DNA of 64,000 bases. It comes from Mangrovimonas sp. TPBH4. Lineage in GTDB: Bacteria > Bacteroidota > Bacteroidia > Flavobacteriales > Flavobacteriaceae. The position numbers and the translations under genes are program-made. Location of the stretch: the NCBI RefSeq assembly GCF_001280505.1, contig NZ_LBIO01000057.1, positions 1 through 64,000 on the forward strand, written 5' to 3'. A model generated the notes under the pieces. The model was not told the DNA's origin, did not search any database, and was given only the letters and a program-made list of their open reading frames with translations. Of this stretch, positions 15,081-22,366 are shown piece by piece (position 1 is the first letter of the stretch; every line of letters begins with the position of its first letter).

Positions 15081-15126
15081 ATTACGGAATTCCGTAAAGG
15101 TTTTTAAAAGTAAAGTCCTACTATTG
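15081..15126 (+). promoter_or_regulatory. 18-bp palindrome plus -7 box, site A of module 1
   Basis: ATTACG-GAATTC-CGTAAA (15081-15098) is an 18-bp palindrome with 6-bp arms and a 6-bp spacer. Its centre lies 29.5 bases before a -7 box TACTATTG (15119-15126, one mismatch to TAnnTTTG). There is no good -33 element, so the palindrome likely binds an activator. The twin site at 17559 has the same sequence plan and spacing. Confidence 0.7.
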
Positions 15127-15131
15127 TATTC

Positions 15132-15204
15132 CCAATAGTTATTTGAGAACAAATAACCAACCAAACCTGATTTAAGACATGCCTTTTTGGGCGTGTCTTT
15201 TTTT
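15132..15204 (+). ncRNA. Candidate ~70-nt two-hairpin small RNA
   Basis: The segment between the palindrome-linked -7 box and a terminator contains no ATG. It folds into hairpin GTTATTTG-AGAA-CAAATAAC (15138-15157), then terminator stem AAGACATGCC (15174-15183) with GGCGTGTCTT (15190-15199) and T7. It could also be an attenuated leader of the downstream kinase gene. Confidence 0.5.
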
Positions 15205-15259
15205 GTTCTTCCGAGGGAAATAAAGGCTGAGCTGCTTTTTTTATTGTTATTTTAGGGGC

Positions 15260-16876
15260 ATGAAACCAACCGTATATATTCTATTTATATGCCTTTTTGG
15301 GGTGGCCCTGCATATTAGGGCACAACATAAAGTTGATAGCTTGACGTATTACTACCAAGTCGTTGGTCACCCAGAATCGAATTCGCAATTGGCCAAAGCC
15401 TATAATTTTTTTAAGCAGCACAAAAATCAGAGCCTTCAGAAAAAAGACATTGAAAAAGCCGTGTTCGATTTAAGATTGTTGGCAAGTATCGAAAAAAAAA
15501 TGGGCTTGCTGTCGGACAGTGAAATTTCTAGCGTGGAGGCCTTGGAGTTGTTGGGGCAGATGGAGGATTCTGAAAAAATAAAGGAAAACAGAATTGGCAT
15601 TTATAACCATTTGGGAATCGTTTACCGAAGTTTGGATAATCCTTCAAAGGCCTTGGAGTTTTACAATAAGAGCTTGGAATTGGTTGAAGATGAGAGTAGC
15701 AGAGCAACCTTATTGAATAATATTGGGAATTTGTATTTGGATAAAAACGAATACACCAAGGCCTTGATGTATTTTGAAGAAGCATATGATAAATCGCCTT
15801 ATTTAAGCCTTAAGATGAAGGCGCGAGTATTGGACAATCTAGGGGTGGCACAATCCAAACTAAACTTGCCAGAAGCGCTCCCCAATTTATTGGAAGCCTT
15901 GTCCATAAAGGAAAATAGCAATTATGTTCCGGGAATCATCACAAGTTATAGTCACTTGTCAGATTATTATTTGGACATAGGGGATAAAGAAGTTGCCAGG
16001 GATTATGGTTATAAGGCTTTGGATTTGGCAAAAATTCTCAATAATCCACAATATTTAGAAAGTGCCTTGTCTACATTGATGCTTTTAAACGGTACTCCGG
16101 AAGTGGTTCAGTATAAAAAGCTGAAGGATAGTTTGGAAAAGGCCAGAAGAAATGCCAAGGATAATTTTGAATATTATAGGTATCAGTTCAGTGAGCAGCA
16201 ACGTTTGTTTGAGGAAAGTGAGTTTAAACGCCAAAAACTCTTTATGTTGCTGGTGTTGGTTGTATTGGTGTTTATAGCTGTTTATTTCGTAGGAAGAATA
16301 AAGCATAATAAAGAGAAGCTTCAAAAAGTATTTGAAACTGAAACGCGTATTTCCAAAAAAGTACACGATGAGGTGGCCAATGATGTGTATCAAATCATGA
16401 CCAAATTACAGTCCAGTAAAGAAACTGAAGAGGTGTTGGACCACCTGGAAGCTGTTTATCGGAAAACACGGGATATTTCTAAGGAAAATAGTGAAATTGA
16501 TGTGGGAAGTAATTTTGGTGAAACCTTGATGGAATTGTTGAAAGGCTTCCATACAGAAGATGTTAGGGTGCTTGTGCAAAATATTTCCAAGGTGGAATGG
16601 AAGTTATTTTCAAATTTACAAAAGGCTACTATTTATAGGGTATTGCAGGAATTGATGGTGAATATGCGAAAGCACAGTAAGGCTACGTATGTAGTTTTAA
16701 AATTCAAACAAAATGGAAAGCGATTTCAAATTCAATATACCGATAATGGGGTTGGAACAGAGCTCTGTAAGAAAAATGGACTTCAAAATACGGAAAACCG
16801 TATCAAATCCATTAAAGGTTCCATTACCTTTGAAACTGATAATGGCGCTGGATTTAAGGCGTTGATAAGAATTTGA
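15260..16876 (+). CDS. TPR-containing sensor histidine kinase
   Basis: This 538-residue protein has a signal peptide (1-21, ending IRAQ), a periplasmic TPR array (~60-290) and a coiled-coil. One membrane helix (~327-346) follows, then a cytoplasmic kinase with the phospho-acceptor motif KKVHDEVANDVYQ (His369), and a HATPase domain with the N-box near residue 466 (LMVNMRKHS) and G-box DNGVG. This is the HisKA_3-like arrangement that pairs with NarL-type regulators. Its response regulator follows 4 bases downstream. The signal sensed is unknown. Confidence 0.92.
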   Translation: MKPTVYILFICLFGVALHIRAQHKVDSLTYYYQVVGHPESNSQLAKAYNFFKQHKNQSLQKKDIEKAVFDLRLLASIEKKMGLLSDSEISSVEALELLGQMEDSEKIKENRIGIYNHLGIVYRSLDNPSKALEFYNKSLELVEDESSRATLLNNIGNLYLDKNEYTKALMYFEEAYDKSPYLSLKMKARVLDNLGVAQSKLNLPEALPNLLEALSIKENSNYVPGIITSYSHLSDYYLDIGDKEVARDYGYKALDLAKILNNPQYLESALSTLMLLNGTPEVVQYKKLKDSLEKARRNAKDNFEYYRYQFSEQQRLFEESEFKRQKLFMLLVLVVLVFIAVYFVGRIKHNKEKLQKVFETETRISKKVHDEVANDVYQIMTKLQSSKETEEVLDHLEAVYRKTRDISKENSEIDVGSNFGETLMELLKGFHTEDVRVLVQNISKVEWKLFSNLQKATIYRVLQELMVNMRKHSKATYVVLKFKQNGKRFQIQYTDNGVGTELCKKNGLQNTENRIKSIKGSITFETDNGAGFKALIRI

Positions 16877-16880
16877 AACT

Positions 16881-17543
16881 ATGTTCAGCAAAGTATTAAT
16901 AGTCGACGATTTAGGAAGTATCAATCAAGGGGTGGCCTCGGTATTGCAAACTTTAAAGGTTTCTACCGTAGTTCAAGCCCAATATTGTGATGAGGCGTAT
17001 CTAAAACTTAAAAAGGCCAAAATGGATGGTGAGCCCTTTGAATTGTTGATCACCGATTTGTCTTTTAAGGCAGACCATAGGGAGCAGGAGTTTACTTCGG
17101 GGGAAAGTTTGGTGAAGGCCATTCATCAGGATTTTCCAGAACTAAAAATTATTGTCTATTCCATAGAAGACAGGTTGCAAACAGTAAGGCTGTTGCTGGA
17201 ATATGGTATTGATGCCTATGTATGTAAAGGGCGCAGAGGTTTACTGGAGTTGCAGCAGGCCTTGAACAAGGTTGTTAACGGAGGGCAATTCCTTTCCCAA
17301 GAGATTTCGCATGCCTTAAGTCAAAAATCAGAAATGGAGATTGAAGATTTCGATATTGAGTTGATGCGGCAGTTGTCCTTGGGGTATTCGCAGGATCAAA
17401 TCAGTAAGTTTTTAAAAGAAGCCAAAATGTATCCAAATAGTTTGAGTTCTATTGAAAAAAGACTCAATAGACTTCGTCTTCAATTTAATGCCAACAATGC
17501 CATTCATTTGGTGTCTATAGTGAAGGACTTAGGCTTAATTTAA
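16881..17543 (+). CDS. Response regulator, partner of the upstream kinase
   Basis: This 220-residue protein has a receiver domain with acidic pair Asp9-Asp10, phospho-acceptor Asp59 (LLITDLSF) and conserved Lys116 (YVCKG). The C-terminal ~60 residues form a diverged helix-turn-helix (GYSQDQISKFLKE...SLSSIEKRLNRLR) rather than a canonical LuxR motif. It is translated right after the kinase (4-base gap). Its probable targets are the two near-identical palindromes that bracket the operon (inference). Confidence 0.88.
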   Translation: MFSKVLIVDDLGSINQGVASVLQTLKVSTVVQAQYCDEAYLKLKKAKMDGEPFELLITDLSFKADHREQEFTSGESLVKAIHQDFPELKIIVYSIEDRLQTVRLLLEYGIDAYVCKGRRGLLELQQALNKVVNGGQFLSQEISHALSQKSEMEIEDFDIELMRQLSLGYSQDQISKFLKEAKMYPNSLSSIEKRLNRLRLQFNANNAIHLVSIVKDLGLI

Positions 17544-17558
17544 AATAAAAACACTCAT

Positions 17559-17604
17559 ATTACGGGTATCCGTAAAAGATATTTTATGGCATGGCTTATT
17601 TTTG
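17559..17604 (+). promoter_or_regulatory. 18-bp palindrome plus -7 box, site B of module 1
   Basis: ATTACG-GGTATC-CGTAAA (17559-17576) differs from site A only in the central bases. A perfect -7 box TAttTTTG (17597-17604) begins 29.5 bases from its centre, exactly as at site A. It lies 15 bases after the response-regulator stop. Confidence 0.72.
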
Positions 17605-17609
17605 ACATG

Positions 17610-17675
17610 CTATTAGTTAATTGCATTTAGGGAATTTTTTACTGAAGGCGCATTCTTAGGGATGTGCCTTTTTTC
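17610..17675 (+). ncRNA. Candidate short terminated transcript
   Basis: The segment downstream of site B ends in stem AAGGCGCAT (17645-17653) with ATGTGCCTT (17662-17670) and a T-run. It holds only a 7-codon ORF (MLLVNCI), so a noncoding product of ~65 nt is more likely. Confidence 0.45.
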
Positions 17676-18145: not shown

Positions 18146-21100
18146 TTAATGCTGTACATAGAATTTTCCGGTATAATTACCTGCTTTTACAAAATAAAGC
18201 CCTTCTGGGTAATTAGTCACATCGATTGTTTTGCCCTTTCCTTTATGTACTTGATTTCCAAATTCGTTGAATATAAAGATATTCCCAGGATGATCTGTTT
18301 CCAAGGTTACATATTCGCTGGTTGGGTTAGGGTAGCATTTTACCGTATTTTGGGTGCCAAAAGCACTTACTTGGGGAGCCACCGTTGATGGAGCTACACA
18401 ATCAAAGCTAAATTCAAAGATTGAATCTGAACCTATATTTTGTTGCTTTTCTTGAGATGTACCACCATCATTGGTTGCTTTTACTTTGGTGTTTACAGGT
18501 AGCAGCTCTTCTCCATTAGGGTTAAATTCCATATAAGGTCCGTATCCGTAACGGTATACATATGTGCCGGATGTCCCACCGCATAAATTTGCAGTAGCTA
18601 ACACAGTTTGGAAGTCAAAACTAGAATCAGCGCCAGTGTTTTGCTGCATCTCTTTAGAGGTACCTTTGTAAGAAACCTGCACTTTGGTGTTTCCTGCCAA
18701 TAACTCTTCTCCTTCTATAGGGTTGAAAGATGTGAATGGGCCATAGCCAAATCTGTAATGAAAGGTAGCCTCCCCTGTAATATCTGCAGAAAGAGAAGTC
18801 GCAAGGTTTGCAGTTACATTTACAGTATTAAAGTCAAAAATTGCATCAACACCAGTGTTTTGTTGAATTTCCTTAGAAGTTCCTTTATGAGAAACTTTCA
18901 CTTTGGTATTTCCTGGTAATAACTCTACTCCGTAATCAGTCTCTAAAGTTGTGTAAGGACCATAACCAAATCTGTATTCAAAAATAGCATCTTCAGTAAT
19001 ATTAGTGGTAAGATTAGATTCAAATAGGCTAGCATTCACATATACAGTGCTGAAATCAAAATGAGAAGTCGCACCAGTATTTTGCTGCATTTCTTTAGAA
19101 GTTCCTTTATGAGAAACTTTTACCTTAGTATTTCCAGGTAACAATTCTTCTCCTGCCACAGGGTCGAAAGATGTGTAAGGGCCATACCCAAATCTGTATT
19201 CCCAATTATCAGCAGTGTTAGTGATATCGGAAGAAAGGGAAGTTTCAAGGTCTGCTGTCACATTTACCGTGTTAAAAATAAACATAGGGTTACTTTGAAT
19301 ATTTTGCTGGATCTCTTTAGAGGAACCTTTATAGCTAACTTTTACTTTAGTATTACTTGGGTTACCATCGATAAAGAACCAAATACCGTTCCCTGTGTTA
19401 TCTGTTCCTATTTCAGTATAGTTTCCATATCCAAAACGATAATGGAAGGTTCCATTGGTCAATCCAATGTCATCACTATCCTGAAGTTGAACAAAAATAG
19501 GCGCTTGTTCTTGGGCGCAACCATCAATGGCTACAGAGGTTTCCAAGTCAAGGTTCCCATCGTTATAGAATCTGAAATCATAGGTTCCTGGGAACATATA
19601 GGTGTTGCATGGTAAAGTCATCCAATGTGTACCGTAGTCATTGTACTTAACCAAATCATAATTGAAACATACACGAGTTGGATTGAATACAACCGTAGTA
19701 GACGGATCAACAGAAGGATCAGCCAATACAATAGATTTTGTTTGGTAGGTATAGATGTTTTTAGCTCTAAGGTCATAAGTTCCTGGGAACAATTCAATAG
19801 AAGCATTACCATCCACTCCTGTAGATTGTGGATCTAAATCTATCCAATGCGTACCGTAATCATTGTATTCTACTTGGATACCTTCAATAGGCATGTTGGT
19901 ATCACAATCTTCTAGATGAGCAACGGCCAAAGCTGTTTGGAATTCTACCATACCATCGGTAGCATCGTCTCCAGATTCGGTCAACTCTAGTGTGCCTTCC
20001 TGAACAGAATAGTTTTTAATTGATCTGAAGGTGTATTCGCCTGGAAATAATTCGATAGTGGCTTTACCATCTGTTCCTGTATACTGGGGATCTAAATCGA
20101 TCCAATGATTGCCATAATCGTTGTATTCGGTAGCAATACCTTCGAAGTCATCGCCATTAGAATCGGTTACGTGGGCTGTAAACGTAGCGGTTTGGAATTC
20201 TACTGTACCATCGTCTCCAGATGTAGTCACCTCTAGGTCTTTGGTTTGCGAAGAGTAATTTTTTGTAGCTCTAAAACTGTAGGTCCCAGGGAACAATTCG
20301 ATAGAGGCTTCTCCATTGGCATCGGTAAGATTTCCATTAGCATCATCAGATTGTGGATGTAAGTCAATCCAATGGTTGCCATAATCGTTATATTCGGTGG
20401 CAATACCTTCAAAAGGATCTCCATTGGTGTGTTTTACAAGAGCCGTAAAGGTCGTCGTTTGGAAGTCTACTGTTCCGGTATTTCCGGATGAGGCTATTTC
20501 CAAAGATTTTTCCAAAACAGAATAGTTCTTGATTGCTCTAAAGTTGTAATTTCCAGGGAACAATTCAATAGAGGCGTTACCAAAAGCATCTGTATATTGA
20601 GGATCCAAGTCTATCCAGTGGTTTCCATAGTCGTTGTATTTCGTAGCAATTCCTTCAAAGTCAGATCCGTCGGTATGCTCAACATGGGCCACATATTTGG
20701 AAGTTTGGAAGGTGATATAGTCTGGTCCAGTAGTAATATACTGGTTGGAGTAGTTCTTACTCGCACGGAATTTCCAAGAGCCTTCAAAGTCGGCATTCCA
20801 AAGGTAAAGTTCGCCATTGGCATCGGTGTTTCCTACCGTAACATAATTATTGCCGTAGTTGTTGCGCTTAATTGGGATATTAGGTAGTGGGCTACCATCT
20901 GCTTTTACGGTTTTAAAAAGGTAAACATTGCCAAAGTCTTCCGCCATATCGCAGGATACGGTAAGTGGCATGCTTAGAATGCCAAATTTAAAGTTATAAT
21001 CTCCAGTTAAAAGATAGCTAGGATTAGTGTAAGTGCCCCATCCATTTTGATAGAATTTTACCAGGCCGTCAAAATTGATGTTCAATTCAACAGCGGTAAA

Positions 21101-22366
21101 AGTTGGGCTGTTGTTTGAGGTTATATCAACACCACTTTGTGATTCAATGCCGTGGTTAAAATAGGTTCTAAAAGTATAGGTTCCAGGTAGTAGCTCTGTA
21201 GAAGAGTTGTTAGGGTAAAGTCCAGACCATCCGTTTTGGTAATGTTTTACTTGGCCCCCTTCTACCGCAGTGGTGCCATCGCAAGCCAATAACTTAGGGG
21301 TTACAGTTATGGTTTCAAAAAGTATTTCTTGATAGCCATCAGAAACATTGCCCTCATCAATTATCACACCGGACACACTTTGAACTCCTTTGTTGTAGTA
21401 AGTTCTAAAAGTATAATTTCCAGGCAATAATTCTTGAGGAGTTTCAGTATCATTGGAGTCATATAAGCCGGACCATCCATTTTGATAGTGTTTTGCTTGG
21501 CCACCTGTTAACTCTTCTCCGTTGGAATTCTTAAGTGTAGGTGCTACGCTAACAGTAACAAAAGGAACCTCTTGAGCAGTTCCGGCAATTGTTACACCAG
21601 ACAAGCTTTGTACCCCTTTGTTGTAATAAGTTGTAAAGGTATAATTTCCAGGTAGTAATTCTTGAGGAGCTTCAGGATCATTGGAGTCATACAAGCTAGA
21701 CCATCCGTTTTGATAATGTTTTACTTCTCCACCTGTTAACGCTCCTCCATCAGAGTTCTTAAGGGTTGGTGTTACGCTAACAGTAACAAAAGGAACCTCT
21801 TGAGCATTACCGGCAATTGCTACTCCAGACATGCTTTGCACCCCTTTGTTATAGTAAGTTCTAAAAGTGTAATTCCCTGGTAGTAATTCTTGAGAAGTGT
21901 TGGAATCATAAAGGCCAGACCATCCGTTTTGATAGTGTTTTACTTGGCCTTCTTCTAACTCTACATTGCTAGAATTTTTAAGAGCAGGAGTTACGGTTAC
22001 AGTACTAAAAATAACCTCTTGCGAAGCACCCGTAACAGCGGTATTGATGGATTGCACTCCCTTGTTGTAGTACATTTTAAAAGTAACATTTGTGGAAGAC
22101 GTTGTATAGCTAAATTCTCCACTTCCGTTGTTGGTAAGTGTCGACCAGCCAGAGTCGTATACTTTTAGGATTGCGGATCCAGCATTTGGAACTGCGGAGA
22201 CGTTGTCACTTTTTAATAATTTAATTGTGATGTCAGTTTGTGCCATTAATGCCGTGGCAGACGTTAAAAGCCAAATAAAGAGCATGTAGGGGAGTGAACG
22301 GTAAATAGATTTGGGGGTTTTGGTTGGCGGTTGGTTTAAGACGCCATGCGTAATGGATTTGTCCAT
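18146..22366 (-). CDS. Large secreted repeat protein with T9SS type-A sorting domain
   Basis: This 1406-residue protein begins with a basic N-terminal extension and signal peptide (cleavage after ATALMAQ, ~44). Three repeat families follow in order. The first is six copies around YQNGW plus ELLPGNYTFRTYYNKGVQS (~65-460). The second is six copies around YNDYGNHWIDLDPQ plus SIELFPGNYNFRAIKNYS (~495-920). The third is five copies around YRFGYGPYTSF plus LLPGNTKVKVSHKGTSKE (~970-1300). The C-terminal ~70 residues (CYPNPTSEYVTLE... ending GKFYVQH) are a T9SS type-A sorting domain. All three families share an aromatic-Gly core then a 'LxPGxYxFR' strand pair, suggesting one beta-sandwich fold. The function is unknown; adhesion or glycan binding is possible. 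Confidence 0.85.
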   Translation of the reverse strand: MDKSITHGVLNQPPTKTPKSIYRSLPYMLFIWLLTSATALMAQTDITIKLLKSDNVSAVPNAGSAILKVYDSGWSTLTNNGSGEFSYTTSSTNVTFKMYYNKGVQSINTAVTGASQEVIFSTVTVTPALKNSSNVELEEGQVKHYQNGWSGLYDSNTSQELLPGNYTFRTYYNKGVQSMSGVAIAGNAQEVPFVTVSVTPTLKNSDGGALTGGEVKHYQNGWSSLYDSNDPEAPQELLPGNYTFTTYYNKGVQSLSGVTIAGTAQEVPFVTVSVAPTLKNSNGEELTGGQAKHYQNGWSGLYDSNDTETPQELLPGNYTFRTYYNKGVQSVSGVIIDEGNVSDGYQEILFETITVTPKLLACDGTTAVEGGQVKHYQNGWSGLYPNNSSTELLPGTYTFRTYFNHGIESQSGVDITSNNSPTFTAVELNINFDGLVKFYQNGWGTYTNPSYLLTGDYNFKFGILSMPLTVSCDMAEDFGNVYLFKTVKADGSPLPNIPIKRNNYGNNYVTVGNTDANGELYLWNADFEGSWKFRASKNYSNQYITTGPDYITFQTSKYVAHVEHTDGSDFEGIATKYNDYGNHWIDLDPQYTDAFGNASIELFPGNYNFRAIKNYSVLEKSLEIASSGNTGTVDFQTTTFTALVKHTNGDPFEGIATEYNDYGNHWIDLHPQSDDANGNLTDANGEASIELFPGTYSFRATKNYSSQTKDLEVTTSGDDGTVEFQTATFTAHVTDSNGDDFEGIATEYNDYGNHWIDLDPQYTGTDGKATIELFPGEYTFRSIKNYSVQEGTLELTESGDDATDGMVEFQTALAVAHLEDCDTNMPIEGIQVEYNDYGTHWIDLDPQSTGVDGNASIELFPGTYDLRAKNIYTYQTKSIVLADPSVDPSTTVVFNPTRVCFNYDLVKYNDYGTHWMTLPCNTYMFPGTYDFRFYNDGNLDLETSVAIDGCAQEQAPIFVQLQDSDDIGLTNGTFHYRFGYGNYTEIGTDNTGNGIWFFIDGNPSNTKVKVSYKGSSKEIQQNIQSNPMFIFNTVNVTADLETSLSSDITNTADNWEYRFGYGPYTSFDPVAGEELLPGNTKVKVSHKGTSKEMQQNTGATSHFDFSTVYVNASLFESNLTTNITEDAIFEYRFGYGPYTTLETDYGVELLPGNTKVKVSHKGTSKEIQQNTGVDAIFDFNTVNVTANLATSLSADITGEATFHYRFGYGPFTSFNPIEGEELLAGNTKVQVSYKGTSKEMQQNTGADSSFDFQTVLATANLCGGTSGTYVYRYGYGPYMEFNPNGEELLPVNTKVKATNDGGTSQEKQQNIGSDSIFEFSFDCVAPSTVAPQVSAFGTQNTVKCYPNPTSEYVTLETDHPGNIFIFNEFGNQVHKGKGKTIDVTNYPEGLYFVKAGNYTGKFYVQH

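Follow-up and report, generated by a model that had tools for sequence, protein, structure and literature searches.

To our knowledge, few control circuits built on small RNAs are known in Bacteroidota. Among the response regulators nearest in fold to the one described here, RcsB activates a small RNA gene, rprA, and LiaR, VraR and spr1814, which share the NarL-family fold, are as far as we know Firmicute regulators unlinked to small RNA genes of such a kind. In the GacA/Rsm pathway, a FixJ/NarL-class two-component regulator acts on small RNA genes through a palindrome, the upstream activating sequence TGTAAG-N6-CTTACA, at about -75/-196 (PMC4950607). Flavobacteria have small regulatory RNAs as well, Rfp18 and others having been described in Flavobacterium psychrophilum, where TAnnTTTG is the main promoter box; in the sections of that report that were consulted, neither two-component control of these RNAs nor a palindrome of the present type is described (PMC9723704).

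A single 2.6-kb locus of Mangrovimonas sp. TPBH4, contained in the 64,000-nucleotide stretch that was analysed (the window), brings together a regulator with its probable binding site, promoters of exact geometry, a conserved family of RNAs and a candidate feedback promoter. The features of the locus are as follows.

15082..15097, no strand assigned: site A, TTACGGAATTCCGTAA, upstream of RNA1; conserved in genomes G001 and G002
15119..15126, plus strand: -7 box TACTATTG of the RNA1 promoter, 21 bp past site A (alignment A4)
15131..15207, plus strand: RNA1, about 70-77 nt from a predicted start, a hairpin and an intrinsic terminator (hairpin 15174-15199), from its fold and its presence in three Mangrovimonas genomes
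15248..15255, plus strand: TATTTTAG, candidate separate promoter box of the kinase gene, conserved in three genomes past the terminator of RNA1 and ahead of the ATG
15260..16876, plus strand: sensor histidine kinase with TPRs and an HATPase domain (Pfam); phospho-acceptor His in KVHDEV
16788..16803, no strand assigned: site B, ATACGGAAAACCGTAT, within the kinase gene, codons N-T-E-N-R-I
16825..16832, plus strand: -7 box TACCTTTG, 21 bp past site B; the codons I-T-F at the box are locked too
16881..17543, plus strand: response regulator with a receiver domain (PF00072) and a DUF5932 domain (Pfam; AlphaFold2 pLDDT 90.8)
17560..17575, no strand assigned: site C, TTACGGGTATCCGTAA, upstream of RNA2; orthologous site past the regulator gene in most relatives
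17597..17604, plus strand: -7 box TATTTTTG of the RNA2 promoter, 21 bp past site C
17609..17674, plus strand: RNA2, about 66 nt from a predicted start, with 5' GCUAUUA (17609-17615), an unpaired AGGGA (17629-17633) and a terminator hairpin (17644-17671)

On the strength of sequence comparisons, we give a probability of roughly 0.85 to the reading that the RcsB/NarL-type regulator activates RNA1, RNA2 and its own internal promoter, and that the RNAs act in trans. The operon would encode two proteins, a sensor kinase with TPRs and a response regulator of the RcsB/NarL type; phosphorylated in answer to a presumed signal, the regulator would bind TTACGG-N4-CCGTAA centred at -41.5 and activate the housekeeping RNA polymerase in the manner of a class II activator. 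It would have three targets: RNA1 ahead of the operon, RNA2 directly past the regulator gene, and an internal promoter at the kinase gene's 3' end, from which the regulator would be re-expressed in a positive feedback. RNA1 and RNA2 would be stand-alone non-coding RNAs with intrinsic terminators, and RNA2 would exert its effect in trans via GCUAUUA and GGGA.

A preliminary description of this DNA had called the layout GacA-like. The analogy stands, in that a two-component system would act through a palindrome on small RNAs, one of which carries a GGA-type motif, whereas membership in the GacA system does not. The window site is TTACGG-N4-CCGTAA at -41.5 rather than the GacA element, with other half-sites, the kinase is a simple TPR protein rather than a hybrid such as GacS, the regulator model is nearest to RcsB, and the RNAs and the regulator are neighbours. 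Several exposed GGA motifs would be expected, whereas RNA2 has its one unpaired AGGGA and RNA1 has none. None of the 60 genomes searched had a CsrA/RsmA (PF02599) match above the cut-off, and the controls were positive.

The kinase has a signal-like N-terminal stretch and one apparent membrane span, the latter read by eye; Pfam found TPR and HATPase domains only, with no receiver domain, and the column of the phospho-acceptor is His in 26 of 26 aligned kinases. The receiver of the regulator is canonical, with PF00072 over cut-off and D10, D59 and K116 invariant in 24 sequences, and the protein is 92% identical in a genome of the same genus (G002). Pfam matched the C-terminal part to DUF5932 instead of GerE, for which there was no match in the regulator, and the model places four helices between residues 156 and 216, with mean pLDDT of 85-95 per block from 161. 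RcsB is the nearest fold and the closest full-length match (Z 21.1, 196 residues, 3.2 A), with LiaR, VraR and spr1814 giving near-equal structural scores. Because the model matches RcsB over its length, DUF5932 is here most likely a DNA-binding HTH domain of the LuxR/FixJ type. The likeness to the Rcs system does not extend to the sequences, RcsB being about 24% identical to the window regulator with a different half-site, or to the sensor, a single simple kinase standing in place of RcsC and RcsD.

Two 18-bp palindromes of a 6-N6-6 plan had been reported to bracket the operon. The sequences are where they were said to be, but ATTACG-N6-CGTAAA is not palindromic, its outer bases (A/A) being unpaired, and the inverted repeat in the window is the 16-bp TTACGG-N4-CCGTAA, a 6-N4-6 form. 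Nor is the layout a twin one, since a third site, inside the kinase gene, had been overlooked. Site A is fully palindromic and site C pairs at 12 of 16 positions. Exact copies occur only twice in the 4.15-Mb genome, as sites A and C flanking the operon, against about 0.17 expected from the base composition of the window, and a reversed control pattern gave 0 matches in the same genome. A relaxed search recovered sites A, B and C and one more match, ahead of an ORF (contig C61:122655-122698; L186, L187), which was rejected as a fourth site because it falls within chance expectation.

Each flanking box had been said to be followed by a terminator, with no credible ORF in the resulting transcript, and both statements agree with what was found: terminator hairpins lie past both boxes, the predicted RNAs fold below shuffles (z = -4.48 for RNA1 and -3.0 for RNA2), and neither of them showed a credible ORF. 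An Rfam search of the window returned two tRNAs only at the gathering score, and weak sub-threshold matches only at relaxed thresholds. Only three Mangrovimonas genomes were found to have RNA1, which is without GGA and without the GGGA motif shared by the RNA2 family. RNA2 itself belongs to a family present in about 30 other loci and typically composed of 5' GCUAUUA, the GGGA motif and a terminator; among 80 named loci, the unit past the regulator gene runs straight into a terminator in about 30. Post-regulator units and others added by hand from other loci made up a set of 41, in which a few come from identical or almost identical genomes; 34 of the 41 have GGGA (shuffle mean 4, maximum 10) and 21 have GCTATTA (shuffle mean 0.2), and CTATTA is invariant in 19 aligned units that were chosen for resemblance. 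As the -7 box spans -12 to -5 in Flavobacterium (PMC9723704), CTATTA begins at the expected start site; 5' GCUAUUA may in part reflect a preference for such a sequence at the start of transcription, given that some of the protein genes among the targets likewise start near TATTA. Ten RNAs yield a terminator stem of 13 pairs, 10 of them with compensatory changes, and across the family the terminators are too varied in sequence to align. Both GCUAUUA and GGGA are single-stranded in RNA2 of the window. A hairpin closing on GGGA was considered as a universal feature and rejected, a per-sequence test finding it clear in some RNAs but not in others, including that of the window, and so the motif alone is claimed.

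The mode of action of such RNAs is the part of this reading held with the least confidence. For RNA2, base-pairing with mRNAs is the most likely mode, at about even odds. A different account, which contests this last step only, is that the RNAs sequester a hypothetical RNA-binding protein other than CsrA, such as an RbpB-like RRM protein, through GGGA, which is the element most widely shared among these otherwise differing RNAs; Maribacter-type loci, in which a longer hairpin carries GGGGGA at its tip in 11 of 11 cases, are in keeping with this account. Against sequestration stand the absence of CsrA from the 60 genomes and the number of GGA motifs, one per RNA being insufficient for titration of the Rsm type in Pseudomonas (PMC2375449); sequestration is judged a less likely alternative to base-pairing. 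It is tentatively suggested that the locus represents an undescribed Bacteroidota pathway, in a lineage without CsrA, in which an RcsB-like DUF5932 regulator would control a GGGA small RNA family and feed back on itself via a promoter in kinase codons, the RNAs acting through a GGGA-binding partner.

The boxes past sites A and C are of the TAnnTTTG type, the -7 box of Bacteroidota, and start at 15119 and 17597, 29.5 bases from the palindrome centres as originally claimed, the spacing from site to box being exactly 21 bp at all three window sites. When the 10-35 bp following exact palindromes were scanned in related loci, 62 of 64 TANNTTTG boxes lay at 21 bp (p ~1e-85, assuming uniform and independent offsets), with one of the remaining two at 22 bp, the other at 34 bp and no other offset filled; among whole-genome matches the N21 spacing was present in 22 of 24, with control matches at zero. 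Promoters at a fixed spacing from the palindromes, as first proposed, are thus borne out and conserved in relatives. With the -7 box positioned as in Flavobacterium, the 21-bp spacing centres the palindrome at -41.5 at all three sites. Because class II activators usually bind there, we infer that RNA1, RNA2 and the regulator would be activated. The regulator could instead be a repressor that blocks polymerase, so that the RNAs and the internal promoter would be on when it is unphosphorylated, and a palindrome centred at -41.5 would indeed adjoin or overlap the -33 region. Repressor sites, however, usually vary more in spacing than class II activator sites, and a single 21-bp spacing shared by almost every site is what class II activation typically shows; the spacer at the place of the would-be -33 element is also unconserved (alignment A2), as expected for activator-dependent promoters, and repression is accordingly judged improbable.

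A further alternative is that the short transcripts are leaders or attenuators of the genes that follow them, not independent RNAs. RNA1 ends about 55 bp upstream of the kinase gene, as a leader might, but a conserved, separate promoter-like box, TATTTTAG, lies directly ahead of the ATG at 15260 and is a probable promoter box of the kinase gene; RNA2 is followed in the window by a converging ORF, and its counterpart in several relatives by a second palindrome and promoter unit, all of which makes leaders or attenuators a distinctly improbable reading.

The proposed feedback promoter lies in coding sequence, with site B 93 nt ahead of the regulator ATG and a predicted start of transcription at 16837, 44 nt upstream of that ATG. 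Site B is kept in 100 of 101 loci, exactly or with 1-3 changes that fall mostly in its left half, and across the 101 loci its codons are locked while the amino acids vary: Thr is encoded by ACG in 41 of 43 cases, as against 13% usage, Ala appears as GCG and Val as GTG, and Arg is CGT or CGC in all 101. When 102 kinases were aligned by codon, synonymous constraint in the last 230 codons was strongest in the block formed by the palindrome and next-strongest in that of the box codons I-T-F, the codons between the two blocks being ordinary. A promoter kept within kinase codons over about 100 loci would be an unusually clean case of overlapping coding and regulatory information.

The operon was found in about 25 of 60 relatives, with a site directly past the regulator gene in most of those, and of 80 named loci, 57 have the site no more than 1 kb past this gene. 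The preliminary description had named in advance a lack of conservation of palindromes and spacings, in relatives carrying the operon, as grounds for abandoning its proposal; both are conserved, and a two-component operon with palindromes linked to its regulator is supported. Of 296 genomes of the order, 71 have a strong orthologue of the regulator (E <= 1e-60); the palindrome and promoter unit, counted by hand at up to one mismatch, occurs in 68 of these 71, as against 3 of the 225 others (Fisher p ~3e-59, a value that counts genomes rather than independent events and ignores phylogeny). Three genomes have the regulator and lack the unit, and two of the three unit-bearing genomes without a strong orthologue belong to a genus whose other members have the regulator. 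It is very probable from this co-occurrence that the regulator binds the conserved palindrome before the short RNA genes and within its own operon; that the palindrome belongs to another DNA-binding protein, merely near the operon, is scarcely credible, given that presence of the regulator predicts the unit across the 296 genomes and that sites recur within and beside the regulator's own operon. As the same site is found at an identical promoter distance in scores of related bacteria, the arrangement looks like a real, previously undescribed regulatory circuit and not a chance pattern. A search of the open-access literature, judged by title and abstract, gave no match for DUF5932 and turned up nothing of relevance to the motif or to small RNAs of these genera. 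The motif is recognisable and can now be used to read the regulon in many flavobacterial genomes.

Sites in relatives also precede small protein genes, namely those for DUF1508 (YegP-like), DUF2188, an HNH protein and small exported proteins, and in two related loci a site stands ahead of the regulator gene. Outside the marine genera, many relatives have the site ahead of protein genes, not RNAs. Because of these protein genes, an output consisting of small RNAs only may be specific to this genus at most.

In L085, L092, L139 and about 30 other loci, a gene for a small lipoprotein (MKKIYxIMFTVFLN..FFSCTPE..CCGDDGDIPPPPPPGG) stands ahead of the kinase gene, in a position that loosely recalls RcsF, and its product could be an envelope partner of the sensor. 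It is absent upstream of the window's kinase, a further difference from Rcs, and an uninformative search of the Mangrovimonas genome gave no match. Minus-strand site-like matches about 2.5 kb upstream of the regulator end in relatives were discarded, as they fall in the start of this lipoprotein gene. The FTVFLN codons of the gene keep a site-like TTACGGTTTTCCTCAA (ACG in 13 of 16) in L089, L090, L139, L140 and others, with TCATTTTG on the opposite strand at a distance of 21 bp, and this may be either a further overlapping site or a coincidence.

Repeated small RNA units occur in L033 (genome G007) and L039 (genome G031), and the kinase/regulator operon is duplicated in G007. Downstream of RNA2, on the minus strand at 18146-22366 of the window, is a gene for a 1406-aa protein built of many short repeats, HYQNGWSGLYDSN-like and then YGNHWIDL-like.
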